From NCBI GenBank assembly GCA_018806915.1, contig JAGKQI010000047.1, positions 186,001 through 250,000 on the forward strand: a stretch of 64,000 nucleotides of DNA, given 5' to 3'. Both the position numbers and the translations under genes were made by a program. Every line of letters starts with the position of its first letter. The first letter of the stretch is position 1. Source of the stretch: Phytophthora colocasiae. Its lineage: Eukaryota > Oomycota > Peronosporomycetes > Peronosporales > Peronosporaceae. The notes under the pieces were generated by a model. That model was given only the letters and a program-made list of their open reading frames with translations. It searched no databases and was not told where the DNA came from. This document shows positions 2,441-64,000 of the stretch, piece after piece.

Positions 2441-2608
2441 GAATGGTCCATGCAGCAAGTTCTCATCGGTACGAAAGCCAGAATGGCATGCCGCAGCATT
2501 GCTGGCATGTACCTCTGGACAAGGTAAGTACAGTATCGAGCAAACTATAAGAACACGATAATATATTGACCAAAGTTACTCTTTGTGGATAATGGCATGT
2601 AATTGTTA

Positions 2609-11400: not shown

Positions 11401-11737
11401 TGGTGGTCATTACAGTGGCTTTCTGGGCAAGTTTGCAATAATGGTAGACTTTGCGAGCCTAGTCACAGTGGGCAAGAACCATAAGCGGGGACATCCTGTA
11501 CTGGGGATGGTGCAATACTGGCACTAGACAACACTGGTCTATCCGTTAGCAGAATGGGCAATAAGGGCCTGTATCAGACAGAGACACAGATGAGAGCCAT
11601 TACTGAGTTCTTAAGCACTGCACAGTTTACAGAATTAGATATTGACACGGAAAGTGCGGATACTGAACATACGGATGAGTTTTGTATTACAGAAGTACAC
11701 GGACACGGACACGGATAAGGAAGTTTAGCTGAAGAGC

Positions 11738-14700: not shown

Positions 14701-15173
14701 AAGGGGACAACGTGCACGTACGGGCGTCACGAGCTCGAAGACGACAAGAGAAACGGGAACGGAAGGCGCACGCTAAGGAACAGAGGGAACTTCAGCACCG
14801 TGATGCACAGTCGAATTACCCGCCCAATAGCTATTACCAGTATGACGAGCACCGACGGACACACGGCCGGGCGAGTTTACGTACGAGTTCTGAGACCGAA
14901 GAAATCGAGTACATTGAACCAGCGTCAGTCAAGCAGGTGAAAGCGACCAAGAATCATAAGGTCACAAATACTTACGAGTATCACAGCCAGAGCACGTACT
15001 GTAGTGCAAGTTCCGAGTGGCATGAAGCAGATGAGCGGCAGTGCACAACAGGGAAGTTGCGAGCAGTACAAGCCCAAGCGGTTGACCAGCTACCGACAGC
15101 CACGATTAACGTCAGAGGCCAAACCGTGACGGTGAAGCTTGATACTGGGGCGCAGTACAGCGTAGCAGATTGA
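11738..15173 (+). pseudogene. Rdel-b gag-protease pseudogene
   Basis: Gag starts at ATG 11738. Order: Arg/Ala-rich start, Gly/Asn repeat region, Pro/Val linker, then capsid in the frame 12280-13623 (KLRLPKFKG, MWYDTVEDAF, FLSGMSNAWC), a Gln-rich stretch and a zinc-knuckle-like CFYCHGYGHHAC (spacing CX2CX4HX2C, shorter than the usual HX4C). The frame then changes into 13713-15173, an acidic and basic linker ending in a retropepsin-like active site KLDTGAQYSVAD and an immediate stop. In the copy at 36040-36792 these two frames join, so gag and protease were once one polyprotein. A frame change between N-terminal part and capsid is shared by copies b, c and d, so it predates the duplication. Confidence 0.78.
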
Positions 15174-16493
15174 AGGTTGGCCCGAATACCACCGGAAACT
15201 GGTGGCAAACATGAGTCGGCAGCGAAGATCGCGAAGCAGGCACTGGAGAAGGATCAGTTGAGAAGGGAACGGTACTACAGCCACAAAGTAAGAAACAACG
15301 TGCATTTCAAGGTTGGAGACATGGTTTGGATCTTCAGACCGCCACGTGGAACGGGAGTGACGAAACTCGCTCACCAATGGATCGGACCAGCAAAGATCAC
15401 GACCGATGGAGGGTTTGACAACTGGATTGTACGTCGAGAAGATACAGGGGAAGAGCTAGTGGCCCATTGTAGCTTTCTAGTCTCTTACTACCGACCTCGC
15501 AGTCAATTAGCAGTAGTGGCAGATCGGATACTGGAAGATCTAGCCAAGGACGACGAGCTCATTGAAGGTGAAGGACGAGTACCAAGGCCTGGAGAAGAAC
15601 GGACTCAAGGAACAAGTCGAGGAGAAGCAGTCCGTGTATCTTCAGCAGGGCAGCACCAGCAGGACGTCGAGAGGACAGGTGGTAATGATGGCACGACAGC
15701 AACCGTGGAACCCGCTTGAACGTACCTGCAACGACGACGACAGAACGGAAGTCACCAACGGGAAATTGCAAGAATAGCTACGAAAACCACGGACGTACCA
15801 GCAACGTCCTCGAGCGATCAAAGTACAGTGCGGCAGCAGGACGTTCCAACACCCCAGCAAGTGAACAGTCAGTTGGAAGTAAGATACCAACGCCGGCTGC
15901 GACGACTACAACTACCTCACAGACTGCAGTGACGAATAAGCAGCGCAAGAGAAGGCGCGATGACGAAGTGCACAGCGGTAACCAACAAGAGCAACAGGCT
16001 AAACGACGCGCGGAGACAGCGGCACGTGAAGCACGAGCAGCGAGACGGAGTGCTCTTCGTGACCGATCGACACAAGCAGAAGCCGAAACGATGGATTCAG
16101 ATGCAGATTGCAGGGGGGTATCAAGTACTACGGAATTTTAGGTACGAACGAGGAAGTTAGAGAACAACAACAACGACCAGGAGGAGACTCGAAGGCACTA
16201 GTCACGGTGACGCAGCACCAAGGGACGGAATTACGCGAGCTCTTCGAGGACACGGACAATCGCGATGGCCATCCGCAGCTAAAACCATCATGGAGGAGGC
16301 TACAGCTAGAACCGTTATTGAACGAGGACAACGAAAAGTCAGAAACATAGCTGGCCGATACGAGACGCAGTACCGAGTGGAGTACCAAAATCGACCAGGT
16401 GGACCAGTGGTATCTGCCTGGCTCGCAGCTAAGCAGTTCGAGACACTATTCGACCAAGGAAAGATCGGGGACGATCTTCAGGCGGGGATGGCG
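15174..16493 (+). pseudogene. Rdel-b integrase C-terminal remnant and polypurine tract
   Basis: Directly after the truncated protease comes the end of an integrase: a basic helix (AKQALEKDQLRRERYY), the beta-rich DNA-binding segment VGDMVWIFRPPRG with HQWIGPAKI, then a Thr/Gln/Arg-rich tail. Reverse transcriptase, RNase H and the integrase catalytic core are gone. The tail shifts frame near 15720 and 16140. A later segment (YRVEYQNRPGGPV) may be the last coding part. The purine-rich GGCGGGGATGGCG at 16481-16493 abuts the 3' LTR. Confidence 0.72.
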
Positions 16494-17415
16494 TGTGGAC
16501 AAATGTCAACATTCATTCGTGAAGAGCGGCTTTCGCTGGAAGAAGTTCGTAGCAGTGATAATTGACCTCACTGGCGACAGTGACGCGGATATCAGTCAAT
16601 CGGAAATTGCAGGAAGATAGTGGAGACCTTGAAGTTGAAGTCAGTGACTTTCGAAGATCGCAATGGGAGGAATGACACGGCACCAGACAAGCAAGGACAC
16701 AGTGGATCAGAGAGGCGAGGCGACATGAACACAAGGCAATGAACGGAGGAGAAGGCACCCAAGAAGTCGCCGAGGGAGGATCCTGACGGTGGCAGGCACT
16801 ATACTTAGGATAGGTGTAGAGATAGCGGGGCTACGGTAGTTAGGAGAGCTATGTGGCGTGCGGCTGGCCGTCAAAACTCTCAGTTACGATTTTGCGCGAC
16901 CGTGCAGAGTTAAGTAACTAAGAAGTGATTTACGCGTGGAGTGCGGCAACTGGTCGGCTTCACCCAACAGCATTTTGAGGGTTATCTGGGGGAGCGGCCT
17001 TGTTCTGCGGTGTACTGACCGGCGAGGACCTCTAGGGTAATACGCTGAGGAGGCACGGAGTTCTGAGGTACGACGATGAGGATGCATGCGTAGTGTGGCG
17101 GGAACGCGGCTAGAAACCGCGCAGTTGTGGTGCTTATCGATAGCGTCTCGACTAGAGAGTGTTCACTTCAACTTCAATGAGGTGTTACATTCATCTTGTA
17201 TAGTACATGTTGTATATTGGGATTAGCACGAGGACAAGCTACAGATCTACCCAAGATTGTAGTTGCTACAAAACGTCTTCTCCCTAGCCGTCTCTACTGG
17301 ACAATGTCCGCCGGGGTCCCTCTCTGGTGACGTGCTGACTCTAGTTCCTGCTTGCGTGACCACTGGCTCCCTTCGAAGTTGGAATTTCAAGGCGTAAAAA
17401 GAAGTAAAGCCGACA
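16494..17415 (+). repeat. Rdel-b 3' LTR
   Basis: It runs from TGTGGACAAATG to AAGCCGACA and matches 10477-11400 apart from small indels. It is followed by CAATCAGCAG, the first bases of the flank. Confidence 0.85.
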
Positions 17416-17840
17416 CAATCAGCAGATCTTGACAACATACCGTTCTTGAGGACGCCACGATGCTATCCACAAAATACTGCCGCGAGAATGGTTAGGGTCT
17501 GCACTCGCGAGCGTAGCGAGCCGCAAGGGTGGTTGGGATCGCGCCGCGCGCAGATGGGTTGTAAAGGGCAGTAGAGAGAGGACAAGCGCTGGTATTTCAT
17601 TGATCCGAAACTACAGATCTTGATCAGAGTTTTTAAAATTGTATACAGTCAAATTGCATTTCGGACTATTTGGCTAACAATTACATGCCATTATCCACAA
17701 AGAGTAACTTTGGTCAATATATTATCGTGTTCTTATAGTTTGCTTGATACTGTACTTACCTTGTCCAGAGGTACATGCCAGCAATGCTGCGGCATGCCAT
17801 TCTGGCTTTCGTACCGATGAGAACTTGCTGCATGGACCAT
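17416..17840. other. CRN 3' flank, inverted copy
   Basis: This is the mirror of 25179-25602. It holds the 40 bp CRN scrap, the GC-rich inverted repeats, an AT-rich stretch, and on the minus strand a GTAAGT motif near 17755 that could be a splice donor of an older exon. No gene can be supported. Confidence 0.5.
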
Positions 17841-20393
17841 TCACAGCCGTCCCGTTTCCACAACAATGACCATTTTTTTCTTTTTTCTTTGGGATGGTTT
17901 GTGAATCCACGCGACACTGCAAGTCTTGAAGCAAGTGTTGCTGGTACGAAGAGTCTTACCCGTAAAGCAAGTCTTGCCCGTACGACATCTTTTGCAAGAG
18001 CCGCAAGCCTTGCACGTTACCTTGACGCAACCGATCTCTTTATTTGCCCACGTCTTTATGCTTGCCCATTCGGCACAAAATAGCAAAATCGTCCACTTTT
18101 CATCCCAGACCTCTTGCAGCCCGCCGATGATTTTTTTCATCGCGTAAATTCCCACTGAATCATTCCAGTACTTACACTCGCAGATAAAAAGTGGTGCGTT
18201 AGGATTCTCCACATCTATCACGTAAGAATCACATCTTTCACTGTCCGCGGGGCGAACGAGGTGACCAAATTTGCAGCCATCAGCTTTCAGAATAGGATCC
18301 GGCCATTCAGCGTTGGGAGGAGCCAGAAACGGGATCGTTGCATTTGCCAAGCTTGAAAGCGCAGAAAACCCGTGTAGTAAGTCACTGGCAACAATGCGTT
18401 TGCTCGAACCCGCAAGGGTCATTGTCATCGGTTCAAATTTGTCCTGTAATTCCCCCAGCAAACCCGCGAAAAAGTCATTGAAAGAGATCCCCCGAACGCC
18501 ATTCCTTTGCGACGCGCAGAAGATCGCATGAGCAATCATATTCTCGAAGGCTGCGTAATCGCTCTTCAGAGCATTCGTGTTCATATTAAACGCCAGCCCA
18601 TTGCTTATCATGTATCTCGAGAAAATAGACTTGGTCGAGTGTGCAATTCTTCTGTTGTGGTCGTAGTAGCCCGAATAATCCTTTCCACCCAATACTGCGA
18701 GGTACAGCAGCATATCGTCTTGAATGTCAGGAAAAACACACCGTGGAACCCAATCTTCACAATCCACTTGCAGCACGCCATCTTTCAGCACTACTTGCGT
18801 GAGTTGGCGATCCACCAAATTGGCAAAGTGCAAGTGCATACAGTAGGCTCCCAAATCATTCATACCGTAGCCTTCCTCATCATCTATCTCATACTTCGTT
18901 CTCTTCATGGGTGGTTCACACTCCGCGTTTGGTAGCTCGCAGTTCGTGTTGGAGACACTATAGGAAATTGCCATTTGCTGCGCTCTTTTCCCGCTCTCTG
19001 TGTTTAAGAAACGCTTGCCCTGCTGCGTCCGTTTACTGACGTTAAGAAATGCTTCGTCTAGCAACTCGTACAGTTCGGCATCTTCGTGAGTTTTCATGTA
19101 CGCCACGATGCTATCCACAAAATATCTGGAAAACCTGCCGCGAGAATGGGTAGTTATTTCCTTTACAAGAGGATACTTGTCCACAGCAGCATCCCAAACT
19201 TGTTGATCCACTTCCTCCACTATCATCAGTTGATGCGAAGGGAAACGAGAAACAATTGTCATCCAGTTATGCTCCCCCTTGTAGCTTCCACCCGACTGAT
19301 CAACTAAATCGGTGATCTTCGAGTCAGTTCCCATTACCATCACAACTAGTCCACAGGCACGAAAAACATTGCGCTGAAAAGCCACCACTTTCATCCCTGC
19401 GCAAGCTTCGGTATTGTCGTTGGTAGTCATTTCATCCAGGATGAAAAACGGGAGAACTTTCCCATCTGCAACCATTTTGTTTCGAACAGCAGCGACAGTG
19501 GTTATAGTGCACTTCTCGATGTGAAGCGTCGTTTGATTTTCAATGCGAATCATCTGCGGCTCCTGACAGTCTCTCGAGCTGCAATATTCGAGCAAAGCGT
19601 AAATGAATCCGTAGGTATACAGCGCGTCCATCTTGTACATGTCAGACCAGCAATTCAGCGTGAGTTCCTTCTCCTTCTTTATCACTTCGTCCATCGCTGT
19701 GACTTTGTTAAATGCACTCGAAATGAAGCTGAAGTTTTTGTAAAGCATCTGAGACTCAGACCCAAGGCGAGTTGCTGGCCAGTAAAAGTATGGACGTTCT
19801 CCTCCCAAGGCAAATGCGAGTTGTGTTTTTCCCATTCCCGAAGACCCTTGCACACAAATGAACGGGGTCGGTGAACGTTCAGATTCGTAGTGAGCTGTAA
19901 CTAGCTGCAGGATGTCTTCACAATAGGCCGAGCATTTGCTTCGAATCGCTTCTCCGCGCTGTTGATAATACTCCAGCTCCTTTTGGTAGCAACCACTTGG
20001 GTTATCTCCCATTACTAGGTCGACTCCCGAAGGAGGGACAACGACCAGTACGTTCACAGGGCTCTTCTCTTCTGTAATTTCTTGCTTCGAGGCTTGGACC
20101 TTAACATCATCTGCTGATAATCCAACAGTGCCAATTTCCGCTCGCATCGTAGCTAACGGCTTCAAACCCGCTGTGTCACTCACGCCATTCCTCACGTCTC
20201 CCTCCGTCAGCCATGCACCGCGACCTTCATCTCTCCTTGCGAGGAAGAGCTGCAGCAGGTCGGCTGGTCCTTCATACTTTATCTCTTTCGCGATCTTTTT
20301 CTTCAGGGAAGCTATCGGTGAGTTCTCGTCGATGTTCACCATGACAACGAGTCTCCCTTTGGTTGTGTCAGCCCCACAGTAGAGAACCACCAT
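17841..20393 (-). CDS. Crinkler (CRN) effector-type protein, module-2 C-terminus
   Basis: An intact 850-residue ORF without introns. Residues 1-120 form the CRN header: a ubiquitin-like fold with the LQLFLARR motif at about 47-54 (canonical LxLFLAK, with Arg for Lys) and NVLVVVP at 114-120 in place of HVLVxxP. Next comes a P-loop NTPase: Walker A GSSGMGKT at 183-190 and Walker B FFILDE around 316-321. The C-terminal module from 721 has a PD-(D/E)XK-like nuclease signature, D727 then ECK at 739-741, followed by a cysteine-rich insert (CKACGSCKRC) and a lysine run near the end. This header-NTPase-nuclease order is known for Crinkler-RHS-type proteins, which in oomycetes are thought to enter host cells. 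No classic signal peptide is obvious, and secretion is not shown by the sequence. It lies head to head with 21536-23998. The first 720 residues are nearly the same there, but the C-terminus differs. Confidence 0.88.
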   Translation of the reverse strand: MVVLYCGADTTKGRLVVMVNIDENSPIASLKKKIAKEIKYEGPADLLQLFLARRDEGRGAWLTEGDVRNGVSDTAGLKPLATMRAEIGTVGLSADDVKVQASKQEITEEKSPVNVLVVVPPSGVDLVMGDNPSGCYQKELEYYQQRGEAIRSKCSAYCEDILQLVTAHYESERSPTPFICVQGSSGMGKTQLAFALGGERPYFYWPATRLGSESQMLYKNFSFISSAFNKVTAMDEVIKKEKELTLNCWSDMYKMDALYTYGFIYALLEYCSSRDCQEPQMIRIENQTTLHIEKCTITTVAAVRNKMVADGKVLPFFILDEMTTNDNTEACAGMKVVAFQRNVFRACGLVVMVMGTDSKITDLVDQSGGSYKGEHNWMTIVSRFPSHQLMIVEEVDQQVWDAAVDKYPLVKEITTHSRGRFSRYFVDSIVAYMKTHEDAELYELLDEAFLNVSKRTQQGKRFLNTESGKRAQQMAISYSVSNTNCELPNAECEPPMKRTKYEIDDEEGYGMNDLGAYCMHLHFANLVDRQLTQVVLKDGVLQVDCEDWVPRCVFPDIQDDMLLYLAVLGGKDYSGYYDHNRRIAHSTKSIFSRYMISNGLAFNMNTNALKSDYAAFENMIAHAIFCASQRNGVRGISFNDFFAGLLGELQDKFEPMTMTLAGSSKRIVASDLLHGFSALSSLANATIPFLAPPNAEWPDPILKADGCKFGHLVRPADSERCDSYVIDVENPNAPLFICECKYWNDSVGIYAMKKIIGGLQEVWDEKWTILLFCAEWASIKTWANKEIGCVKVTCKACGSCKRCRTGKTCFTGKTLRTSNTCFKTCSVAWIHKPSQRKKKKMVIVVETGRL

Positions 20394-45844: not shown

Positions 45845-46070
45845 GGTCGCGACAAGTGGTGGAGAAGCAGGGTAATAGCCTGCTGGAGAAGGGTCCTCGG
45901 AAGTGAACTTCAAGTGACTACTTAAACGAGGAAGTGAAGTACTCTTGTCCTACCAACTAGTTGTTAGTTGGTTAACTGAGTGGTTCGTCTGGGCGGGAGT
46001 GCGGCAACTACCGGAACTCAAGACGGCACAAGAGGAACAGGAGCGGGACGAGCAAGAACCCGAAATCGAG

Positions 46071-48497
46071 ATGTCTTCGTTCGGACCCGGTGTCGGAGAT
46101 GACGACAGGAGCACTACCTCGAGTGAAAACGGTGGCACGGACCCATCTGCTACTTCCTGGTTCAGGGGAGGAGCGAGTCGCCCTCCTACGGTGACTCCTG
46201 CGAGCCCAGGAGGCAGTGACAGTCAACATGCGACTTTGTGGTTTGGACTCGGGGGACCTTCTGCTACTACGCACCCGGGGAGGCCGAGCTTAACTGCTCC
46301 TGGAGGGTTAACCACGGTCCAGGCCATGGTACGTAGAGCTGCCCTGGGTTCTACTCGCCCAGTGCAACAACCTCCTCCTGCAAGGCCTCGACTGACTCGG
46401 AGTCTCTCCGAGCCCAGGAAGGGATAAGCTAGACCACTTGCTAGCCCCGTAACTACTCACGGCGGATTTACCTTACATGGAGTGACTTCCAGTACCGGAC
46501 TCGCCGCAGCGACTTCTGTGCCCCAGAGTGAGACTCAATTCCAAGCTTCAACTCCTATGGCCAGCTAGCCAGCGACTAAGCCGATGACTCCAGTAGTTCC
46601 CGTTCCCCTTACTCCGTCAGCGACTCAACCGGGAGTCGCGACTATGGGAGTAGCTGATGCTACCAAGCACTACCTGTACCCGCCTCAACTGATGGCTCAA
46701 CCTGGATACGCTGCTAGTGTGGGGACTGGTGTGAACGTAGCTGTTAGTTCTACGGGAACTAATCCAACCGGATGGAGTGGTCAACTCCCTGGACTACCAC
46801 CTACTGCTCCGATGATGACTCCTGCTACCAGCGTACCTCAGTCTACTCGTTCAGCGATCCCGAGTTATCAGAACGTGACTCTTGGCGCGACTCCTGGCAA
46901 TCCTGGCACCGGACTGAACAATCCGTTCATCCAGCCCGTCGGATGGTCGGCAGCGGCCGGTTTCTCCTACGGCACTCCAGCTCCTATCTCCTATGCGACT
47001 ACCTCCGTGCCGCCTCAAGTGACTCATGTCTCTACGACTCAAGTACCTCCTAGCAGCGCTCTTACGACTCCTATGAACGTGGCTCCACAGTTGACTTCAG
47101 CTCCTGCTATGACGACTCCTGCCACTACTAGTTACCCGCAAGCGACTGCTGGGCAGACAGCTTACTGGAGTCAACCGCAGCAACCTGGGAATTCGGCTCA
47201 AGCCACTAGTCTACCCCATCCCGTGACTGCTCCGACCTCGGTGACTGCTGGACATCTCGCGAGTGGCGTAAGTAGCCAACCTTACTCTACCGTACCTAGT
47301 CAACTTCCCGGACACTACACTCCGAACTACCAACAGTCCGTGAGTCAGGTGACTAGGCCTCCTCTAGGTATGCCGTCCAACATCAAGAATGCAGTCCGGA
47401 TGATCCAACCGTTTTACTCCGATGGAGCTTCAGCAGACAAAGCTCGATCCTTCTGGAGTGCATTCGAGAGAGCTACGGAAGGACTTGACGACTCCTTACG
47501 GTTGAGTGCCTTCAGGGAGTGTCTTAAGGGCAAAACTGGTGAAGAATGGCGGACTTACTCCCAGATTAACGACTTCAACACTCTGAGAACTCGCTTCCAC
47601 AACCAGTTCGTGTGTCAGACTCCACTTCAAATGATTGAGCGACTGAAGGTGACCAAACGGTCTCGAGGTATGTCGGCCGAGGTGTGGGGCGACTTAATTT
47701 CGAGTCTCTGTGACGCCGCTCAGTACTTTGACCCAGGGATGAGATACCAGTACTTCTTGTCAGGACTCCGCAACAAGCAGTGGCGAAACACACTTGACAC
47801 TTCATTGGTGAACTCGATTCCTCAGGCTGTAGCAGTGCTGCTTTACAAGAACCAGCACTTGCCTGTGGAGGACGATGCCGACTTCGAGGACGAGCCTCCT
47901 AAATCGACTCACAACGATGACTTGATGAAGCAAATGTTGACCGTGATGCAGCAAACTCAGAGTCTCTTGGCTCAACAACAAGTGCAGGCTACTTCAGCTG
48001 CTACTCAGGGAGGAACTACAGCGGCTGCCATTCAGTACCAAAACATGCCTGCTGCTAGTCAAGGAGTGTACGCAATTCAGCCCACTACTTCTCTACCGGT
48101 GACTCCTACTCGTGGTATTCGACAGGGACCTGACTTGTACACTCAGGAAGGACTCACCGTGTGCGGGAGGTGCCACACGTTGGGGTGCAGTCGACTTAAC
48201 TGCCGCAGGAACAACTCGACTTGCTCGAACTGCCAAGGAACTGGTCACGTTTACGTCGAGTGTGAGTTACCCCGAGGGTACCAACGTCAACAGCAGTCAA
48301 CGGGCCAGCGTCAGCAGCAACTACAGTCGCAGAACACGAACTCCAACTCTCGCTCAAACTACCAAGCCAATCGAGGCCCTAGGGCCTGCTTCCTGTGTGG
48401 AACTGCGGATCACGTAGTGGCCAACTGCCCGTCGAGGGAGGCGCTGAACCAGCTAGTCCAGAAGGCTGGGGTTACAGCGAGCTCCAGTCAACACTGA
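46071..48497 (+). pseudogene. Gypsy-1 gag, with two internal stops
   Basis: Taking the first in-frame ATG (46071), the frame runs to TGA at 48495 but is broken by TAA at 46425 and TAG at 46566. The uninterrupted part from ATG 46584 is 637 residues. The N-terminal third is rich in Pro, Thr and Ser and has no clear fold. Then comes a capsid-like block (FYSDGASADKARSFWSAFE, then LKGKTGEEW, then YFLSGLRNKQW) and two zinc knuckles, CSNCQGTGHVYVEC and CFLCGTADHVVANC, both CX2CX4HX4C. Both internal stops could come from Gln codons by a single C to T change. The region packages the RNA and builds the particle. Confidence 0.8.
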
Positions 48498-49859
48498 AGG
48501 GGGCTGGAGGAAGGGAAGGGTGAAGTCACTCCTTCCTCCTGCCAGCTAAGTGACTTGAGTGAAGTCACTTCCAAATCTACGACTACCTGTGACGGAAATG
48601 GAGTGAGTTCAACTGAGACTGTAAAGAGAACAACGACTGATAATGGAGTGAACATGATTGAAACTGAGAAGACTGAGTGTGAAGGTGCTGAGGCGGGTCA
48701 CTTGACTGCCGCTTACATCGGAGACTGGCTGAAAGACCCTTCTTGGGAAGAGTATGCCGATGAGGTACGGGTGAAGTCGAACCCAGTGAACTACTGGAAC
48801 GCGCCCCGTGAAAAGAGTGAAGTTGTCCACTGCGAGTGGAAGACTAGTGGAACAAGTAAGAAAGGAGAAACTACTTCCCTCGGTGACTTGGGAGTTACTG
48901 AGAGGCAGTCCGAGAGGGATGACGAAAGTGAAATTAATCGTCCTGAGTTCGATGAGAGTATTTTCGACCCTGGTATGCGCGAGAATAGAGATGAACCTGC
49001 GAAGAGCTGTGAAGAACTGCTTGACCAGACGAGTGTGAAGACTGATGACCGACTACGAAATAACGAGACCTGTACTAGCGAAGGTACTCCAGGAGTGACT
49101 ACTGACAAGACTGACGAGACGGCAACTGTGCCGTCTACCACCGATGCTGATGGTGGAGGTGAGGCGAACACTACCGAAGTCGCTACTGAACTAACTACTG
49201 GTGAACTGGTGAGTGACCTAACCGAAGAGGGAGTAGCTCGAACTGAGGTCGAGGCCGTTAGAGTGACTCAAGAAACTCAAGGAGTAGTTGAACTGAGTGA
49301 AGCTGAGAGTGAGTCGTCTACCACCGATGCGGATGGTGGGGATGAGGCGAGCACTAGGGGTGGCGTCGCGGGAGCGGCTAACAAACTCGCAAGGGTGTAT
49401 TCTGAAGAGGAACTGAATGAACTAGCTGAAAGCGTAAACAATGGAGTACTAGAAGAAAAAGAGGAATACGACAAAGAGCTCGAGGAGCGACTCTTCCCAC
49501 TGGACGAGGTAGAACTCAAGAGAAGAATGGAAGTGAATGCGTCGCAGTCGCAGAAAATGTCACTAGCCGACTTAAGCACCATATTGGGAATCACGGAGGA
49601 AGTCATCAGTCGTACGAGGGAGTCGTCTCCAGGGGTGCTAGCTACGCCCGAATACTGGACTGCCTGGTATCGGAAGACGCTAGCCGCGACTAACGCAGCT
49701 AAGCGAGCTAACCGCGACTTCAGCGACTTAAAGAAGTCGAAGGAGATGACCACTCCCCATGAACAGCGAGAGGAGTCGCTGATTCGGACGAACGCGATGT
49801 GGGAGGTGGAAGAACCGAGAGTACTTCTAACCGGGATCAGACTGAGGCAAGTGAGGTAA
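48498..49859 (+). CDS. Gypsy-1 acidic ORF between gag and pol
   Basis: This frame is continuous with gag apart from the single TGA at 48495-48497, then stays open for about 450 codons. The first ATG is at 48654. The product is strongly acidic and Thr/Ser/Glu-rich, with a coiled-coil-like stretch (EEELNELAESVNNGVLEEKEE region, split here) and a basic end. No known domain was recognised. It overlaps the pol frame by 61 bases (49799-49859) in the -1 frame. It may be a gag-pol linker reached by stop readthrough, or a separate protein; TGA may also be a mutated Arg codon. Confidence 0.6.
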   Translation, partial: RGLEEGKGEVTPSSCQLSDLSEVTSKSTTTCDGNGVSSTETVKRTTTDNGVNMIETEKTECEGAEAGHLTAAYIGDWLKDPSWEEYADEVRVKSNPVNYWNAPREKSEVVHCEWKTSGTSKKGETTSLGDLGVTERQSERDDESEINRPEFDESIFDPGMRENRDEPAKSCEELLDQTSVKTDDRLRNNETCTSEGTPGVTTDKTDETATVPSTTDADGGGEANTTEVATELTTGELVSDLTEEGVARTEVEAVRVTQETQGVVELSEAESESSTTDADGGDEASTRGGVAGAANKLARVYSEEELNELAESVNNGVLEEKEEYDKELEERLFPLDEVELKRRMEVNASQSQKMSLADLSTILGITEEVISRTRESSPGVLATPEYWTAWYRKTLAATNAAKRANRDFSDLKKSKEMTTPHEQREESLIRTNAMWEVEEPRVLLTGIRLRQVR

Positions 49860-52800
49860 TACCCTCCTATTCGTACGATGAAGAGGCTGTGATCGCGAAT
49901 GTGGCCATCGATTTATCGGAGGTTCCTGGTGGTGCTGTTAGCGCTGTGACGGTATCCTCCCGACGAAGGAAACGTTTTGATCCGAGATGGCGTGGGTTAG
50001 TGCAGCGGATGGTGTATTACCTCGTCAAGGAAGAAGAAAAGGTGAATTCCGTGTGTGTCGACTGTGGGTCGCTTCTCTTGAGTGACTTCGTTCTCCCGGA
50101 AGTCGACTGGGGAGAAAATGACCTTAAAGAACGAGCTCTGGCTAAAGTAGCTCAGTACTATCGAGCGATGAGTAACTCCGTGATGAAACGTCTCGTGAGT
50201 GTGATAGTGGAGAAGTACTTGAGTGAAGGTCCACTCATTCGAGCTAAGTTGAAAGAGCGAGAAGACCGGTGTGACGACTGTCTGAAGTTGGCTCTCCCAT
50301 CGCGAAAAACGCGGAGCTCGAAGCAAGTGCGCTTCGACTACTCGTCTTTGACTGGTCTAAAGATCGAAGAGCTAGGGCCCCGATGTTCGCGTGACGACTC
50401 GAACAGCGTGTACGAGTACGCGTACGTAGTGACTGATCCCGTGCGAGTCTCTACTCAGGAAGGAAATGGTGACTCTCGGAAGACTGGACTAGTTGAACTG
50501 GATGTACTCGACGAGAGTGAAGACACCGATGTAGTACCTGAAGGTAAGCGGGTGATTGGCTCAGTGGGTGGTGTGGAAGCCACTTCTCCCGGATATGTTG
50601 ACTGTGTACCCGTGGATATACTCATCGACTCTGGTGCGGTGGTGAGCTTGATCGACCGTAAATTACTCCGTCGGATAGGGCGAGGCAATGACTCTCTGCG
50701 ACCGTACAATGGAAACTTGAATGGAGTGTCGGGTCACCAACTCAAGATACGAGGTGTTGCCGACCTCCCTCTCAGACTTGGGTCGTTGGAGATTGTTCGA
50801 CCTTTTGTGGTCGTCGATCACATGCATGTGGATGTGATACTTGGGACCGACTCACTTCGACAGTTCCGAGCTGTTGTCGACTTAGACTCTAACTCCGTGA
50901 CTCTGAAGGACACGGGTGAAGTGTTTTCGTTGGGTACTCCTAGAGTCGAAGAAGTGCACTCTGCCCGAGTGAGTTCGACTGTTCGCATCTGCCCTGGTGG
51001 TCAAGCTCTAGTAGTGTCGGAAGTCCGAGGCCAAGCAAGCGACGGACAAACTGTGTTGGTTGAAGGTGTCCCGGGACTGGACGGAACTGTGCGAGTTGCC
51101 CGTACGCTATGTACTGTGAATCAAGGGAAGTTATTGGTCGAGGTCTGCAATGCTTCTACTGAGGAACTGATCATCAAGAAAGGTACTCTAGTTGCTGCCG
51201 CCACGGTGGTGCTGGAGTCGGCTTTCGAGTTCGAGTCCCCGGCGACTCTTCTGTTGAGCAGTGACTCGGGACCTGTCGAGTCCCGGAAAACTACTGAAGA
51301 AGACTGGGTGCACTCTGTAGTGAGTGCTGCCGGCGCTACTACCGACTCGTCATACCACTCCATGCCGAACCTCGAAAAGGAACTAATTGATGAGTTTGCA
51401 GTTGACTTCACCGATTCGAAGCTGAGTGAGGAACAGAAGAGGCTGTTCCGGCAGACACTCGGGTCCTACAGAGACTTGTTCGTCGAGACTTCCATGAAAC
51501 CGGGTCGGACGCATCTACTCGAGTTCGAGATTGACACTGGTGACCACCCCCCTATCAAGCAGCGACCCTATCGCGTCTCCAAAGCTGAAGGTGATGTGAT
51601 GGAGGCCGAAGTGCAGCAGTACCTGGACTTGGGACTCATTCGACCCTCGAGTAGTCCTTGGGCTAGTCCTGTACTGATGATACGCAAACCCGACGGGGGC
51701 ATCCGCTTCTGTATCGACTACCGTCGACTCAATGCAGTGACTGTGAAGGACTGTTATCCGATGCCACTCATCGACGACATCCTGGACGTACTAGGAAATG
51801 CTAAGCTCTTCTCTACAATGGATATTGCCTCGGGGTACTGGAATGTGCCGATGGCGGCGGGCAGTGTCGGGAAGACGGCCTTCGCCTGCAAATTTGGACT
51901 GTTCGAGTGGCTAGTTATGCCATTTGGACTGTGTAATGCAGTGCCTGCATTTGAGCGACTTATGGAAGGAGTACTAGTCGACTTGAAGTGGCGAACTTGT
52001 TTAGTCTACTTGGACGACTGTGTGGTCTTCAGTGACGACTTCCCGACTCACCTTGTGCGACTTCGGCAAGTACTCGAGCGTTTTAGGACTGCTGGTTTTA
52101 AACTCAAGATGGTGACCAAGTAGCTTTCCTCGGTCACATAGTCACTCCCTCCGGCATACTTCCTAATCCTGAGAAAGTGAAGGCAGTCATGAATGTCGAG
52201 CGACCCAGTGACCTCCGTGCGGTTCGCGCGTTCCTGGGCTTGACTAGTTACTTCCGAAGGTATATACCGGGGTACGCTGCTATCTCTGCGCCCATCGAGA
52301 GGCTGAAGGCCAAGGGTATACCCTTCGAGTGGAGTCCTGATTGCGAGTCCGCCTTTGTACAACTAAAACGTAAGCTAGTCGAACCTCCTATTCTAGTCTA
52401 CCCGGACTTCAACAAGCGGTTTAAGCTCTATGTCGACTCCTCGAAGCTAGCAGTGGGTGCCTGTTTGATGCAAGAAGTCGCCGGTCGTGACCGAGCTATC
52501 GCCTACGCTAGTAAACTACTAGTTGGGTCAGAGAAGAACTGGGTGAACAACCAGAACGGCACTTCGAGATCGAGTGCTAGGGAATCGTGTGGGCGACTCG
52601 CAAGTTTAGGTGCTACCTCGACCGTTGTGAGTTTGATCTCTTCACCGACCATAAGGCACTACTGTGGGTGTTCAGTGACGCGAACAGAACTAACAACGCT
52701 AAACTAGCCAGGTGGGCGATGGAGTTGTCCCAGTTGCGGTTCAAAGTGTATCACAGGCCTGGTACTTCGATGGGTCACGTGGACGGACTCTCTAGACTAC

Positions 52801-54785
52801 ATGCAGTGACTGTCAACGCAGTTACTATGGCCGATCTACTGAATGAGGCTAACGAAGAGGACCCGGTTCCCATTCTGGTCGGGGAGGGTGAGACTGAAGT
52901 TGCGACTGAAGAAGTCACTGGGGCGACTCCTACTAGTACCGGAGGAAGTGGTCAAGTCGCGGTCGGGGAGCGACTCCCTGCCGAAGATCCTACAGCCGCC
53001 CCTACTACTCCGACCCCTCAGCCTAAAGAGACTTCCCTAGACGAAGAACAACTACTTGTCTCCCCCGTTGATGTGTTCGGCCTGGATCAGGCCCGCTTTA
53101 AGGAAGAGAAGAAACGTACTCCTTGGATTCTGGCAATGATTGCCTTCTTGGAGAGTGGTGCACTGGCCTTGGATGCCCAACTGCGAGCGAAAGTGTTGTC
53201 CTTGGCTCCACACTACACTGTGAAAAATGGAGTTCTGATGCGACGAGTCCATTTGAAGGCTCGAGCTGGCCACGCTCGATCCCTGGAAGTCCCAGTGATC
53301 CCGGTTACCTACGTCGCGACGGTACTGCACCACTGCCATGCTGACGTGTTCGCTGCTCACGTGGGAGTCACTAAAACTATGGACAAAGTGCGCAAGCACG
53401 CCTACTGACACGGCTGGAAGAAGGACGTCGCCGAATACGTCCGCGAGTGTACTATTTGCGGGAGTGGCAAAGGCTACCGCCCTTGGCGGAATGGACTCAT
53501 GCAGAAGATGCCCATCCAAGAACTGTCTGGTCCCTTTTCGCTACTTGTGGTGGATGCTGTTGGCCCTCTCGTGACTACTCCTAGATGCAACAAGTTTATC
53601 CTGGTGTTTGCGGACTACTTCACCCGGTGGGTGGAAGCTTTTGCTGTTGAGCGTTTGGATTCGGTGACTTTTGTGGAGGTTATGGTGAACGAGGTGATCT
53701 CGCGGCATGGAGTGCCTGAAAAGCTACTAAGTGACCAAGGGTCAAACTTTATCTCCGAGCTGGCGAGGTCGCTGTACGAGACTCTAGAAATTAAAAAGTT
53801 GTTCGGGGCGGCTTATCACCCACAAACTCAAGGACTTGTCGAACTATTCAACGGGACTCTAATTGGAATGCTACGCATGTACGTGAGTGAGTCCCAAGAT
53901 GACTGGGACTTATATCTACCTAGAGTACTCTTCGCCTATCGGACTTCCTTCCACGAGGCCCTGGGTGACTCTCCGTTCTTCAGTCTGTACGGTCGTGACC
54001 CTGTGCTACCCCTCGACTTGGCTTTCCTGAACACTTCCTCTCAGTGGAAGAGTAATGAGGTCGCTACATACCGACGTCGACTCTACCTGTCCCTACGTGA
54101 TACTCGCCGACTAGTCGAAAGACAACTACTCAAGGCTCAGAGTCGCCATGGACAGCGACTCCAAGGTCAAGTGTCTGTGAAGTTTGAGGAAGGTGATGCT
54201 GTCTGGGTCTACCAGTATTTCAGGGCTCGCCAAGGAGAAAAGACTTCGAAGAAGTTAGCCTTCTCCTGGCATGGTCCTTACTGAATAGTGGGCACTGTCG
54301 GAGAGAACGCCTACCGCGTCGCCATCCCGACTCACCCGAACAGAGTGGTCACCATCAATGTAAACCGACTCAAACCCTTCCGGGGTCGCTGGAGTCGACC
54401 TTTTCCTACCGAAGTACCTGAAGGCATTACTACTACTCCGGGTGAGGATGACGAGGGTCCACTCGCTGAGGAAGACTTACCCTCGACGAGCTATATCGAA
54501 CGACTTGTCATTGGATCTGAAGAAACTGCTTTCGCTGGAGCGAGTCTACCGGTGGTCGACATACTTGCTCGAAGAAAGAAAGCCGGTGAGTTGCAGTATC
54601 TAGTACTACTTGCTACCTACGAGACGAGTTGGTTGCCTGCGACTTCCCTACGCCCTGATTTTGACGCGCTGATCACATTGTTCGAGAGTACTCGGCGAAA
54701 AGAACAGGGACTCCCTCAACTCCGCCGTAGTGCCCGGCTGGTCGACGCCAACGCGGCTGTCGACATGGATGAGTTACTCTTCTAA
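49799..54785 (+). pseudogene. Gypsy-1 pol (PR-RT-RNase H-IN), frameshifted
   Basis: Frame 49799-52123: an N-terminal Cys pair region, retropepsin-like LIDSGAVVSLID, then reverse transcriptase with YRRLNAVTVKDCYP, MDIASGYW, FGLCNA and the catalytic YLDDCVVFSDD. It breaks near 52123; 52177-52707 continues RT (AFLGLTSYFRRYI) and early RNase H (LYVDSSKLAVGACL). It breaks again near 52555; 52587-54785 carries the rest of RNase H (DLFTDHKALLW) and integrase: HHCC zinc finger, then D (VVDAVGP), D (LLSDQGSNF), E (GLVELFNGTL), and the C-terminal DAVWVYQYF segment. TGA stops at 53406 and 54282 interrupt the last frame. No chromodomain was recognised. Confidence 0.85.
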
Positions 54786-58734: not shown

Positions 58735-58979
58735 CGTCCCGTGCCCGGGAATGAGACCCTCGAACCAGCGTGTTCGGCTGTGCACCATGCCCCGGGGCCT
58801 TGTCGCCCGTCGCACTCGCCGTGCTGCGGTCACTTAGCGTAGTAGACTGTCCGCGGTCCACTCCGGGGTACGTCCCCGTTTTCCTCACCAGAGCGGTCCA
58901 GCAACATCCTCCCGCGAGTGTCGTGCGGAGGGAGGACACTACCGAAGGCTCCTGCTCTACTATTTCGACGGGGGTTATC
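58735..58979 (+). repeat. Gypsy-1 3' LTR, cut by Gypsy-2
   Basis: The first 245 bp of the LTR, nearly the same as 45428-45672, with C for T at the first base. It stops after GGGGGTTATC, where the 5' copy continues with CCTACAAG. Gypsy-2 starts at the next base. The remaining LTR must lie beyond the window. Confidence 0.85.
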
Positions 58980-59340
58980 TGTAACGGGGTTACATTGAAG
59001 AGTGACTTTAGTCACTCTTCCGAAGTGGATACATTTGGTGTGTCACACATCATGGTGACACGTGGCAGGTGGCTCCGCAGCCACCTATCACCTTCTATAT
59101 AGGTTACACTATAGATATCTTTTAGTTTGTATTGCAGGCCAAGCTAACAAGTATCTATAATATATTCAGTCTTAAATCTACCTAATCTTTAGTTAGTCTC
59201 CCCAAGTCTTTGGGGACCGAGTGAACTGCCGTTCACTAGGAGTTTGTATACTCCAAGCCTTCCTCTGTGTGAAGTGCTGTGTGACCCCCGTCACACTTGG
59301 TAGCACTTGTAGTCAATCCTACGCCTACGCGGGTAGATTG
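58980..59340 (+). repeat. Gypsy-2 5' LTR (right end not resolved)
   Basis: It begins TGTAACGGGGTTACA, itself an inverted repeat. A TATA-like TTCTATATAGG lies at about 59092-59102. Perfect hairpins include 58997-59020 (arms 10), 59067-59086 (arms 8) and 59220-59237 (arms 7). Without the 3' LTR the inner boundary cannot be fixed; 59340 is a guess. Confidence 0.6.
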
Positions 59341-59379
59341 ATTACCTGAATCCTCTGTGGCCAGAAGTAGTTGGCCACC

Positions 59380-60450
59380 ATGGATCGAAGTGAGTTTCCT
59401 CACTTGACCGACTCTCAGTTTGAGTCGGTCCGGAAGATGGCGGGCATCTTTGGGATGGATGCCTTCCGAAGCTTGGCGGCGGCGACGCCGGCCGAGCAGG
59501 TCGAACGCGTGGAGGCGTTCGACATGTACGAACGTGGGCTCATTGAGCACGTTCGAGGAACCTTTGAGGCTCCTGTGGTTGAACCGAGGCCGGTTCAACC
59601 TAAGCCTTTAAGACTCAAGGTTCTTCCCTATGAAGGGAAAGAAGGTGAAAACCTTCACTTCTGGATCCGAGAAGTTGAGCTCGCCATGGAGGCGGCTCTC
59701 ATCTCGGTGGAGCGACTTCGGGTCGCTTTCGCGCTGTCTAACCTCGGGGGTCGAGCGAAGACATGGGCGTACACGCGCAAAGCGACGTCGCCTGGATGTT
59801 TTACATCCTGGGCCCAGCTGTGCGAACAGCTTCGGGCCGCATTCCTCCCGGCGAACTATGAGTATCGCCAGCGGTCACGCTTCCTAGCCTGCAAGCAAGG
59901 GAAACGTGACCTGCACGAGTACATCCAAGAGATGCGCGTTCTCGCGGCATCTCTGGTAGGGAACCCCCTACCTGAACACATCCAAGTAACTGTGTTCATG
60001 GACGGCTTAAGAGTAAGCCCGGCCCGCACGCAACTGTTCCGCGTGCAGGTCAACACGATGGAGGAGGCGATTCAAGTCGCGCTCCAGGAGGAGTACAGCC
60101 ATACACAGGCTCAGACTCCTGCCTCTGCGTGGCAAGGCCACAGCGGGCCGACGACGGCGTCGGCCAGTGCTCCTGGGAATGGAGCAGGCTCGGGACCAGC
60201 CCCTATGGACTTGGGGCTCGCCGAGCAGAAACGCATCCGCTGTTTCGAGTGCGGGCGTTTCGGACACTTCGCACGTGTCTGCCCCTCTGGGGGGCAATGG
60301 AAGAGGTCTTCCAAGCCTCAAGGCTCTAAGGGCCGCTGGAAGAAGCCGGCGCCCATAGTCAGGAACTCCGGGGACCTGTTGGGGGGGGGCGCCCTACTGG
60401 GTAAACACTACGTCCCCATGCGGTTGGGGCGGGAGGCACACGCTGTGTAG
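59380..60450 (+). CDS. Gypsy-2 Gag
   Basis: Open frame of 356 residues. ATG 59380 is chosen because it sits in GCCACCATGG, an ideal start context. Content: an N-terminal helical part (PHLTDSQFESVRKMAG), a capsid-like retrotransposon gag domain at about residues 75-240 (LPYEGKEGENLHFWIREVE, then WAQLCEQLRAAFLP, then FMDGLRVSP), a Gly/Pro/Ala linker, and one zinc knuckle CFECGRFGHFARVC (CX2CX4HX4C), then a basic tail. It forms the particle and binds element RNA. No lesion is visible in this frame. Confidence 0.88.
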   Translation: MDRSEFPHLTDSQFESVRKMAGIFGMDAFRSLAAATPAEQVERVEAFDMYERGLIEHVRGTFEAPVVEPRPVQPKPLRLKVLPYEGKEGENLHFWIREVELAMEAALISVERLRVAFALSNLGGRAKTWAYTRKATSPGCFTSWAQLCEQLRAAFLPANYEYRQRSRFLACKQGKRDLHEYIQEMRVLAASLVGNPLPEHIQVTVFMDGLRVSPARTQLFRVQVNTMEEAIQVALQEEYSHTQAQTPASAWQGHSGPTTASASAPGNGAGSGPAPMDLGLAEQKRIRCFECGRFGHFARVCPSGGQWKRSSKPQGSKGRWKKPAPIVRNSGDLLGGGALLGKHYVPMRLGREAHAV

Positions 60451-61170
60451 AATTAGCCCCAGAGATTCTTGGGACTCTCAAAGCGTATATGGGCAGCGGT
60501 GGGCTGCTGGTGGTTCACGCGAGTGTACGGGGGTTTAACAACTCCTTTAGAGTCTTGATAGACTCTGGGGCGAGCAAGAACTTTGCTCGCCGGCAAACTG
60601 TCGCGAGGAACCGCGGCAAGTTTGAGGACGTTCTACGCGAGAGTGAGGGAAGTGGGCTAGTCGCTGTACGACTAACTGATGGTACGGTGGTGGAAATACC
60701 AAAGGTCCAAGTGGACCTGGCTGTGAAGTTTGAGGACTTCGACAGCGTGGAGTCGTTCATTGACCTCGAGATGGACAAGTACGACTTGATCCTAAGGATG
60801 GCGTGGCTTGAGAAGCACGAGCCCTGGATCGATTGGCGCGGCAAAACCGTTGGGGCTAGCTGGCCTGCAGTCTCTGAGAGAGCCTTGGTGAGTCATGTTC
60901 CCGCCTCTGTCAGGCCTAAGGGCGTTCGCTGGAACCGCCAGGACGCGGCAGCGTCCGAGGAGTATTTGGGGGCTGGTGTAGTCGGTGCTACATCGCCCCA
61001 CACGAGAAGTGATCGTGGGCCAGGGATGGCCGGGGCAACGGGCGGAGGCCCTTGCCCTACGTGTGGGTCTGCAACGATAGCAGGGCCCCACGCACGAAGT
61101 CGCAGCGACGTACAGGCTGCGACTGTGGTAGTGCCCGAGAGCACTAACCAGGTGGGTAACGTAGGTCCAC

Positions 61171-61505
61171 AAGCGGATCAAAGAGTTCCGCAGGAAGCCA
61201 AGATGGCTCGCGATGCCGAAGTAGTGGCATCGCCAGGCGTACGAGAAGTAGTTCGACGCCAGGTCGCTCAGACCATAACTGATGCGGGTAACAGAGTTCC
61301 GCATGGAGCCACGAGGGCTCGTGATGCCGAAGTAGTGGCATCACCAGGCGTGAGAGAAGTAGTTCCACGCAAGGTCGCTCAGACCATAACTGATCAGGAA
61401 GACACCAAGGGTGCTTCCGATGCGGGTAACGCAGTTCCGCACAGAGCCATGAGGGCTCGTGATGCCATCGTAGTGGCATCACCTGGCGTGGGTAAGTTAA
61501 CCCCA
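61171..61505 (+). repeat. Internal repeats in Gypsy-2 pol linker
   Basis: Three in-frame units of about 111 bp (about 37 residues, containing ARDAEVVASPGVREVV), starting near 61173, 61284 and 61423; the third is shortened and preceded by an extra 28 bases. Each carries the same set of hairpins, with some changes on both arms. It lies between protease and RT. Confidence 0.8.
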
Positions 61506-63847
61506 CGCCATGGTCGTAAGCCGGGGTTGGTAGAATACCATCCCGAAGAAGTCCACGAGGACTTGGGACAGGAGCTAAAGGCTCCTAGGTCACAGTCGGT
61601 CGAAGAATGCTATCACATCTTCGACGGCGTGACCGGGCATCGCGTGAAGGCGGGGGCCATCGAGTTGGCACCCCTGCCTGAGGTATCAGAGCTATTGAAC
61701 CTCGAGGAAGTCGCGATGGAGGACTTCCTGGCCGAGTTGAAGGCCGGGGAGATATCGGAGATGGTTCTCCTTAGGCCGGAGCCCACTCCAGAGGAATTGA
61801 ACTCCTCCTCAGTTATGGACGAAGACGTCCTGGAGGAGTTCCGGAAGCAACGTGCGTCGCGCACGGGCTCCGAGATTCTGAAGAATCCAAAGGATCCGCT
61901 GTATCCTTTAGTGAAGGAGTTTGAGGACGTGGTGTCCAAGGACCCACCCTCAAAGCTCCCACCAGACCGAGGGATCAGGCACGAGATTGATCTCGTGCCA
62001 GGCACAAAGTATTGTGTCACGCGTCAATGGCCCCTGCCCCGAGAGCAGAGCGACGTCATTGACGCGATCTTCGCGCGTAAGGCGAAAGCGGGAATGGTGC
62101 GGGAATGGTGCGGGAATCGAAGTCCCCGCACTCGACGCCAACCTTCTGCGTTCGCAAGCCGAACGGGAAGTGGCGTCTGGTTCATGCTTACAATAAGCTG
62201 AACAGCGCGACTGTGCCAGCACAGACGCCGATCCCTCGCAAGGATGTGTTGTTGAACAACATGGCCGGCTGCACGCTGTATAGCGCGCTGGATCTGGTGG
62301 ATGGATATTACCAGATCCTGATGCGGGAGTGTGATATCCCGCTCACGGCCGTGAGCACGCCGAGCGGTATGCTCTGGGAGTGGCTGGTAATGCCACAAGG
62401 TCTATCCAACGCACCAGCGACCTTCAATCGCTTGGTCACACAGTTGTTTAGACCTTTGCGTGCGTTCACGCAGACGTACTTTGACGATATATTCGTCCAT
62501 AGCCGTGCCGAGGGAGGCAATACGGCTATAGAGGTGCATCGAGAGCACCTCCGTCGAGTGTTTGAGGTCATGAGAGCTAACAAGCTCTATGCCAACATCG
62601 ACAAGTGCGTCTTCGCAGCTGAGGAGATTAAGGTCCTCGGCTGCTTCGTCAGCAGCGTCGGGGTCCGGAGCGGATCCTGACAAGGTCAAAGCCATTGCGG
62701 CATGGCCTGTTCCTCGGTCACAGAAGGACCTGAGGAAGTGGTTGGGCTTAGCCAACTACTTGCACAAGTACAGTGCTGGCTATGCGGGACTCGCAAAGCC
62801 TTTGTCGGACCTTCTGAAGAAGGAGGCCGAGTGGTGCTGGGAGCGCCAGCACCAGGATGCTTTTGATAGCATCAAGGCGAGCTTGCAATGCGCGCCCGTC
62901 CTGGCGTTGCCGGACGATGCCAAGTCGTTTAGCGTTGTCTGTGACGCTTCCGACTATGCAATTGGCTGTGCGCTATTGCAACAGGACGATGAGGGACGAG
63001 ATAGGGTGATCTCGTTCCAGTCCAGGCAGCTGAAGGCTGCCGAACGGAACTATCCCGTTCACGACAAGGAACTCTTGTCGATGAAGTATGCCCTTGTCAA
63101 GTTCAGGGTGCATCTTCTGGGCTCAAGGCCCTTTGTGGTCTATACGGACCACGCGTCCTTGCGGACAGCCATCCATACGCCGCACTTATCGCAGCGGATG
63201 GCGCGTTGGCTGTCATTCTTCGCGGAGTATAACTTCCGCGTTGAATACAAGCCTGGCAAGCTCAACACGCTTGCCGACGCTTTGTCGCGCAGGCCCGACT
63301 ATGAGTTCGCTCATATTAGTCGGGCCACGACGGATCTTTACGATCGAATACGCTTGGCGTATCGGGACGATGACGCCCTCGCACCTATTGTGCGGTATTT
63401 GTCCGCTGGCACGGATACCAAGGTCGAATGGCTTACGCCTCGACAGCGGGCACGGCTCCACCGCTATGAGTGGGCCGATGGCCTGCTCCACTATCGGGTG
63501 GAGCCCGGGGATCCTCCGCGGGTCGTTGTTCCGAACGACGAGGATCTGAAGTATGATATACTTCACGAGGCACACGATGTGCCTTCGAGTAGCCACTTGG
63601 GCCGAGAGAAGACCTATCATGGGGTCTCTCTGATGTTTTGGTGGGCCCACATGTACAAGTGGGTGGCCAAGTACATCAAGACATGTGAAACATGTCAGCG
63701 CGTGAAGCCTGTGGGGCACGCGTCGGCTCCGCCGCAGAGCCTGCCAGTCCCACTGGACTGCTGGAAGTCGATGAGTCTCGACTTTGTCTTCGGCCTTCCG
63801 GCCGATGACCAGAAGAACACCGGCATTGTGGTGTTTGTATGCCGGTT

Positions 63848-63936
63848 GAGCAAGATGGTGCATCTTGCTCCGGTCTCTGAGACCATTACCGGGGAACAAA
63901 CTGCGAAGTTGTTCCTTGATAGCGTTTTCCGCTATC
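63848..63936 (+). repeat. Cluster of four perfect hairpins in pol
   Basis: Four in 89 bp of integrase-coding sequence: 63848-63870 (arms 10, loop 3), 63872-63884 (arms 6, loop 1), 63893-63915 (arms 7, loop 9) and 63918-63936 (arms 7, loop 5). This is the densest example of a pattern seen throughout the element. Confidence 0.85.
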
Positions 63937-64000
63937 ACGGGTTGCCTGAGACTGTTGTCTCTGACCGCGACCCGCGGTTTACCGCTGCGTTTTGGAAAAC

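Follow-up and report, generated by a model that had tools for sequence, protein, structure and literature searches.

Introduction

Genome-scale ordered RNA structure (GORS), described in RNA viruses, is the closest precedent for the element reported herein, a Ty3/Gypsy retrotransposon with long terminal repeats (LTRs) that is dense in short perfect hairpins, including inside its genes. The element begins at position 58980 of a 64,000-nucleotide stretch of the genome of the oomycete Phytophthora colocasiae (assembly GCA_018806915.1, contig JAGKQI010000047.1, positions 186,001 to 250,000 of the forward strand), hereafter called the window. In excerpts of PMC7642675, the folding-energy excess is given as 15% for SARS-CoV-2 and 7.5–10.7% for hepatitis C virus, with 23.4% as the highest of the values quoted for vertebrate RNA viruses. 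According to the same excerpts, multiply represented variants of SARS-CoV-2 occur 2–3 times less often at paired than at unpaired sites, a difference that single variants do not show. The genomic RNA of the yeast retrotransposon Ty3, probed by selective 2'-hydroxyl acylation analyzed by primer extension (SHAPE), is presented in excerpts of PMC11381356 as a mosaic in which some regions are stable and others dynamic. Maize transposable elements with microRNA-like local structures are known, and in excerpts of PMC10760457 the structure is described as a signal for a silencing response.

The first-pass annotation of the window, which was made from the sequence alone, stated that no coding sequence of this kind was known to it. 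The RNA viruses with GORS (excerpts of PMC7642675) are a precedent, and the statement needs correction accordingly. For LTR retrotransposons, a search of titles and abstract starts, with subscription journals mostly outside its reach, found no literature on GORS in these elements or on hairpins in Phytophthora Gypsy elements. The present study describes the hairpins, their recurrence among related copies, and their probable cause, which we consider to be selection on the element for generic pairing within its genomic RNA.

Results

Hairpin excess in the element

A full-window scan (arms of at least 6, loops of 3–12) identified 90 perfect hairpins within 58980–64000 (17.9/kb) and 127 within 1–58979 (2.15/kb). 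With arms of at least 8, the corresponding counts were 24 and 4. The density jumped abruptly at the left end of the element, each of the five 1-kb bins from 59 kb onward holding 12–25 hairpins and every other bin 0–8. Eight hairpins were in the 316-bp LTR, one in the leader, 24 in gag, and 56 in pol up to position 64000. In the whole element (8324 bp), 153 non-overlapping hairpins with loops of 2–12 were found, with a median spacing of 40 nt between centres. The 22 hairpins quoted in the first-pass annotation were all present with the positions and arms given there, that at 61980–61997 having a loop of 2.

The excess was retained against 500 shuffles of each open reading frame (ORF) that kept the protein, codons, and dinucleotides, a control that the annotation had proposed together with local folding energy. 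All three ORF stretches of the element exceeded every shuffle: gag had 24 hairpins against a mean of 5.2 and a maximum of 13 (shuffled over 59371–60447), pol 60489–62198 had 21 (mean 4.9, maximum 12), and pol 62589–63998 had 28 (mean 5.8, maximum 13). The LTR and leader (58920–59370), compared with dinucleotide shuffles, had 9 hairpins (mean 1.0, maximum 4). The annotation had also reported that the pattern is missing from stretches that it sampled elsewhere in the window, and this holds for the rest of the window. The hairpin counts of the six ORFs tested outside the element were all inside the shuffle range. The nearest to an excess among these six belonged to the other Gypsy element of the window (12 against a mean of 6.5 and a maximum of 15).

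The minimum folding energy difference (MFED), calculated for 350-nt fragments against dinucleotide shuffles, averaged 26.8% over 23 fragments of the element (z -6.2). All 23 were positive, with a minimum of 10.1%. The three other window stretches examined gave values of approximately zero (0.2, -1.5, and -0.2%). In the antisense orientation, the MFED of the element was 32.7%. Helices of 6–11 pairs were in excess (192 against 376 summed over three shuffles), whereas those of 12 or more pairs were not (2 against 5 summed over three shuffles). The share of G-U among predicted pairs was approximately half that of shuffled sequences on both strands (0.076 against 0.141 in sense, 0.050 against 0.108 in antisense).

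The strong rise was limited to the inverted arrangement. Inverted repeats with loops of 0–9 occurred at 16.7/kb in the element and 2.1/kb in window positions 1–45000, and those with loops of 10–29 were likewise raised (5.0/kb). Mirror (2.4/kb) and direct repeats (2.0/kb) in the element showed no rise, and direct-complement repeats were mildly increased (4.8/kb against 1.7/kb elsewhere). The hairpins can hardly stem from chance, from base composition or codon usage, or from low complexity, because the shuffle controls were exceeded, other repeat types were less raised, and the excess recurred in the fetched family copies and, weakly, in a sister family. The shuffles of hairpins and of folding energy ruled out chance and composition.

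Arms ranged from 6 to 11. Loop length peaked at 4 nt and loops of 0–1 were scarce, with 2 hairpins at loop 1, 9 at loop 2, 9 at loop 3, and 20 at loop 4. A hairpin with a loop of 3–4 is counted under loops of 1–2 when the ends of its loop are complementary, so that the counts at loops 1–2 would approximate a chance product of loops of 3–4. The loop spectrum points to hairpins that form physically and need a loop of some minimum length. Stem codon phase (31/41/43) had no clear bias by eye, and Rfam gave no gathering-score match across the 8601 bases of the fetched stretch that holds the window copy (L031).

Recurrence among family copies and in a sister family

In the genome searched (92.5 Mb, 105 contigs), at least 119 gag matches were found. 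Of 2927 candidate reverse transcriptase (RT) matches, 150 were scored; 39 were 94–100% identical and form the family of the element, while 111 were 81–82% identical and form a sister family. In 15 family stretches (L031–L045), hairpins were dense wherever the sequence matched the family, L038 and L039 containing family DNA over only approximately 2.8 and 2.2 kb, respectively. Over the first 2900 columns, which 31 of the 39 copies cover nearly in full, each of these copies had 45–64 hairpins. Past the 3' LTR, hairpins dropped to 1, 0, and 2 per 500 bases in L032, the only fetched stretch that runs well past it.

The hairpin excess of the sister family is weaker. Five of its copies had 58–73 hairpins against local-shuffle means of 17–20, and the window copy had 142. 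Three of the five were used in the pol alignment and one in the protein-conservation and folding-energy tests; the latter gave an MFED of 11.0% in sense and 16.8% in antisense. The antisense excess was thus the larger in both the hairpin-dense family (L031 81–8404) and its sister, perhaps reflecting a baseline that is shifted by the surplus of G relative to C in the sense strand. Four other RT loci (3 kb each) had 0.3–1.7 hairpins/kb. Controls from other elements were few, comprising these four loci, the six ORFs, and the three window stretches.

Individual pairings turn over between the two families while the places of hairpins recur. Nucleotide identity in pol was 67%. Of 322 stem pairs compared with sister copy L046, 145 were the same and 150 differed on one side; both sides differed in 26 (9 of these Watson-Crick), and 1 was gapped. 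Two-sided changes were Watson-Crick in 9–10 of 26, near the chance expectation of one third, and only one of 45 pol hairpins was Watson-Crick throughout in all three sister copies. Because homologous pairs mostly showed no covariation between the two families, fixed functional structures were ruled out for most hairpins of the aligned part of pol; the hairpin at 63765–63784 is the exception. However, in all three of the near-identical sister copies compared, the mean distance of sister hairpins (arms of at least 6) to family hairpins was shorter than under any of 262 local shifts, and 64–69% of the sister hairpins (12–14 per copy) were within 10 columns of a family hairpin, against 37–38% when shifted. 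Stem codons were better conserved in protein than other codons, both in gag (0.76–0.79 against 0.67, nine relatives) and in pol (0.73–0.78 against 0.69).

Variants among family copies

The 39 copies were projected onto the columns of the window copy. Matches had to exceed 88% identity and 250 bp, and the analysis took in the columns with at least 10 copies, pol being covered by fewer copies. Singletons occurred at 0.116 per column both inside and outside perfect stems. In contrast, variants present in at least three copies were approximately 2.3-fold rarer in stems (18 of 2096 stem columns against 114 of 5751 others), and 0.0018 of circular shifts gave a value as low.

The same distinction was observed at sites paired in RNAfold predictions, after dropping sites with the minor allele in a folded copy and sites with mixed pairing calls. 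The unpaired/paired rate ratio was 2.44 and 2.95 for shared variants and 1.12 and 1.07 for singletons. The odds ratio of shared versus singleton variants was 2.18 with one folded copy (p=0.0003) and 2.75 with three (p=0.0006). At codon position 3, the rate ratios were 2.71 and 3.36 for shared variants and 1.21 and 1.30 for singletons. Antisense folding gave an equal result; therefore, the variant test cannot name the strand.

Singletons broke stems evenly to G-U and A-C states (66 and 65), and shared stem-breaking variants did so at 12:2. In the RNAfold test, the GU:AC counts were 17:9 for shared and 146:159 for single variants. A sense-strand preference for G-U among shared variants is suggestive only. 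Double changes within the family (4 Watson-Crick, 2 mismatched cells) were too few to weigh. As a separate observation, family copies fall into two multi-site haplotypes at 65045–65105 (window numbering, beyond the window, in L031), a candidate for recombination between subfamilies or arm conversion.

Structure of the element and the remainder of the window

The hairpin-dense element is a Ty3/Gypsy LTR retrotransposon, with two LTRs, a target duplication, gag, and the order protease, RT, RNase H, and integrase (Table 1). The Pfam match to rve is below the curated cut-off, the integrase core lying only partly within the window. The element spans 8.3 kb (L031 81–8404), of which approximately 3.3 kb extends beyond the window. 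The target-site duplication and only two differences between the LTRs indicate a recent insertion. The pol frame is interrupted in the window copy, and other copies have longer open frames.

Table 1. Features of the hairpin-dense element (positions are those of the window unless stated otherwise)
Feature	Position	Strand	Remarks
5-bp target-site duplication, 5' copy	58975..58979	+	identical five bases before 5' LTR and after 3' LTR; second copy outside window
5' LTR	58980..59295	+	316 bp
Likely primer-binding site start, putatively of initiator-Met tRNA type	59298..59304	+	sequence after LTR; presumed from Ty1/Ty3 sites
Leader hairpin just upstream of gag start codon	59357..59378	+	arms 6, loop 10
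gag	59380..60450	+	Retrotrans_gag, Ty3_capsid, CCHC zinc knuckle
Hairpin in gag (example)	59406..59430	+	arms 9, loop 7
Hairpin in gag (example)	59577..59600	+	arms 10, loop 4
pol, first open stretch	60489..62201	+	aspartyl protease RVP_2
Hairpin in pol (example)	61978..61999	+	arms 9, loop 4
pol, RT stretch, different frame	62105..62680	+	Pfam, ORF
pol, RNase H, integrase H2C2, and start of rve	62589..64000	+	continues past window end
Hairpin in pol	63765..63784	+	arms 7; sister-family hairpin at same centre with swapped base pair
Hairpin in pol (example)	63848..63870	+	arms 10, loop 3
3' LTR	G000:C10:252988-253303 = L031 8089-8404		outside window

The LTR ends (58980–58994 and 59280–59295) are perfect hairpins starting with the terminal TGTRAC motif; given hairpins at both ends, the integrase ends of the LTR could fold. 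Between the protease and RT stretches, pol contains an imperfect direct repeat (61173–61490; L031 2274–2453 against 2385–2591, 76%, offset of approximately 111 nt). This repeat is present in most family copies examined, and the hairpins at 61210–61233 and 61321–61344 are in register with it.

A second Gypsy-like element (45945–54300) encodes protease and RT in one frame. It had no folding-energy excess, and its pol hairpin excess was marginal, as given above. Many blocks of 1193–20331 are repeated in 22770–44423 at a spacing of approximately 21.6–24.1 kb, mostly with 98–100% identity (20 of 39 repeat families shown), and look like a recent segmental duplication across a large part of the window's first 45 kb.

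Discussion

We conclude that the hairpins are probably best explained by selection for generic pairing of the genomic RNA of the element. Shared variants avoided paired sites while private ones did not, no protein sacrifice was found in stems, and hairpin places recurred in the sister family with different pairings, all of which support selection for RNA structure. Singletons presumably represent mostly decay after insertion, and shared variants are likely to have arisen in lineages that kept transposing. According to this explanation, the RNA of the element would fold within cells into the predicted stems, and natural selection would keep it folded into short hairpins along its full length, genes included. 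Variants that break pairing would be removed in transposing lineages, while specific pairings would be free to shift. We speculate that shielding of the RNA from host RNA-directed silencing is the likeliest benefit, through reduced access of small RNAs, reduced sense:antisense annealing, and helices that fall short of the length needed by Dicer. Next in rank may be compaction of the RNA for its packaging into particles.

Several results weigh against this explanation. The predicted paired share was only slightly higher than in shuffled sequences (0.649 against 0.603), and perfect hairpins take up just 36% of the element; since the paired share was barely raised, the excess resides in the length and stability of local helices. 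The depletion in perfect stems faded with frequency (shift fractions of 0.07, 0.16, 0.15, and 0.60 at cut-offs of at least 4, 5, 6, and 8 copies) and was significant with arms of at least 6, but not with arms of at least 5 or at least 7 (p of approximately 0.25). Perfect stems held 41 of 135 two-copy variants and 243 of 910 singletons, which shows no depletion of the former; at RNAfold-paired sites, two-copy variants were depleted in only some of the tests. Of the shared variants in non-coding sequence, 6 were paired and 2 unpaired (ratio 0.74), with no sign of the effect. With arms of at least 5, the recurrence of hairpin places held in two of three sister copies and failed in one. Wobble-dependent stems showed no clear sense preference for G-U (GU 18 observed against 7.9 expected, AC 15 against 6.8), and a second such test was similar, with the exception of the longest stems. 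The stability of isolated hairpins did not differ between the strands (67 against 67 of 144), and the MFED was greater in antisense than in sense. GNRA loops numbered 4 and their reverse complement 6 among 70 loops, with no enrichment of GNRA/UNCG tetraloops. Without assumed polarity, the GU:AC count of shared stem-breaking variants was 15:6, which did not differ from singletons (80:74, p=0.11). A simple shielding role is, furthermore, at odds with the maize elements, in which structure is described as a silencing signal.

The first-pass annotation had offered two causes, selection for RNA structure and template switching; the former gained support from the depletion of shared variants, the intact protein, and the recurring places, and the latter did not. 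In template switching, the nascent strand would fold back at reverse transcription and copy one arm of an imperfect palindrome into the other, so that mutation would both produce the hairpins and keep them perfect, without benefit. Such a process would suit stems that are strand-symmetric and almost purely Watson-Crick, the small loops, and an LTR about as dense as the genes; it is documented for DNA replication (excerpts of PMC8794818 and PMC8604942), and a few clustered differences resemble inversions of an arm or spacer. However, differences from the sister were not biased to one arm (same-arm change pairs 109/208, 107/206, and 109/213, against 104, 103, and 107 expected), and the stem substitution rate was not raised (0.314 against 0.328 outside stems), both comparisons being diluted by changes on the sister branch. 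Among 63 clusters of at least three differences between another copy and the window copy, for which the direction is unpolarized, the longer best arm was in the other copy in 16, in the window copy in 32, and in neither in 15. Amino acid differences were also fewer in stem codons. Unconserved pairings, recurring places, the conserved protein of stem codons, and the lack of one-arm clustering favor selection for generic pairing over template switching, which we regard as unlikely.

The stability of hairpins on both strands and the halved G-U share on both strands leave room for DNA-level conversion or for selection on two strands. In the former, single-stranded minus-strand DNA would fold, and repair by the host or polymerase would match stem mismatches base by base. 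This fits the strand symmetry, the lack of one-arm clustering, and the depletion of shared variants at paired sites; it predicts neither the better-conserved protein in stem codons nor, as a weak point, the 12:2 ratio of GU to AC among shared breaks. We know of no example of mismatch conversion in complementary DNA (cDNA) hairpins, although no search for one was made, and consider this process very unlikely. Selection on both strands is a form of the explanation that we prefer and is not exclusive of it: hairpins would block sense/antisense or RNA/cDNA annealing, with Watson-Crick pairs preferred to G-U. The halved G-U share, the equal stability of hairpins, and the high MFED on either strand are consistent with it. 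However, perfect hairpins are symmetric by nature, so that symmetry alone is weak evidence, and we hold this form to be possible but rather doubtful. We only tentatively speculate that a strand-symmetric hairpin armour lets a DNA-borne element escape RNA silencing, in that neither its transcript nor antisense RNA would anneal easily or be read by small-RNA silencing.

If retrotransposons, too, can be selected for pervasive structure, neither vertebrate innate immunity nor RNA replication is required as its cause. A natural comparison is at hand within one host, between a family with strong structure, its sister with weak structure, and Gypsy elements without it, and the dozens of family copies are a record of tolerated mutations. 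Small-RNA, methylation, and expression data from the host could directly show whether structured families evade silencing.

Among Phytophthora Ty3/Gypsy elements, the gag described herein is 72% identical to a P. infestans 'gag protein' (Q5MGC1). Relatives of gag and pol comprised 298 proteins, with 11 Phytophthora species among the best 120 of these, P. infestans, P. ramorum, P. cactorum, and P. palmivora included; the gag relatives among these 120 are Phytophthora proteins. As in those elements, gag contains Retrotrans_gag and CCHC; the present element additionally has protease, RT, RNase H, integrase, LTRs, and the 5-bp duplication. As with the hairpins made by template switching (excerpts of PMC8794818 and PMC8604942), its genes contain inverted repeats that are perfect and have short spacers; it differs in that the signature of multi-base changes in one arm was not found in our diluted or unpolarized tests. 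Similar to yeast Ty3 and Ty1, it has a structured, in this case predicted, genomic RNA; however, excerpts of PMC11381356 describe a mosaic with stable regions of up to 30% of an A-rich RNA, whereas hairpins occur throughout the present element.

The likeness to RNA viruses with GORS, as far as excerpts of PMC7642675 describe them, is closer. Both have a folding-energy excess along the genome, coding regions included, and many short sequential stem-loops with no excess of long duplexes. In both, particular pairings are poorly conserved and places are partly retained, and variants that recur are rarer at paired sites, whereas those seen once are not, an effect that is weaker or absent here under some definitions and cut-offs of perfect stems. 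In contrast to those viruses, the structure resides in an LTR retrotransposon that lives as DNA, and the likeness is one of working rather than viral GORS itself. The excess is also larger, at 26.8% against 15% and 23.4% under shuffling that is similar, but not identical, and it consists of perfect Watson-Crick hairpins of 6–11 bp that are equally good on both strands.

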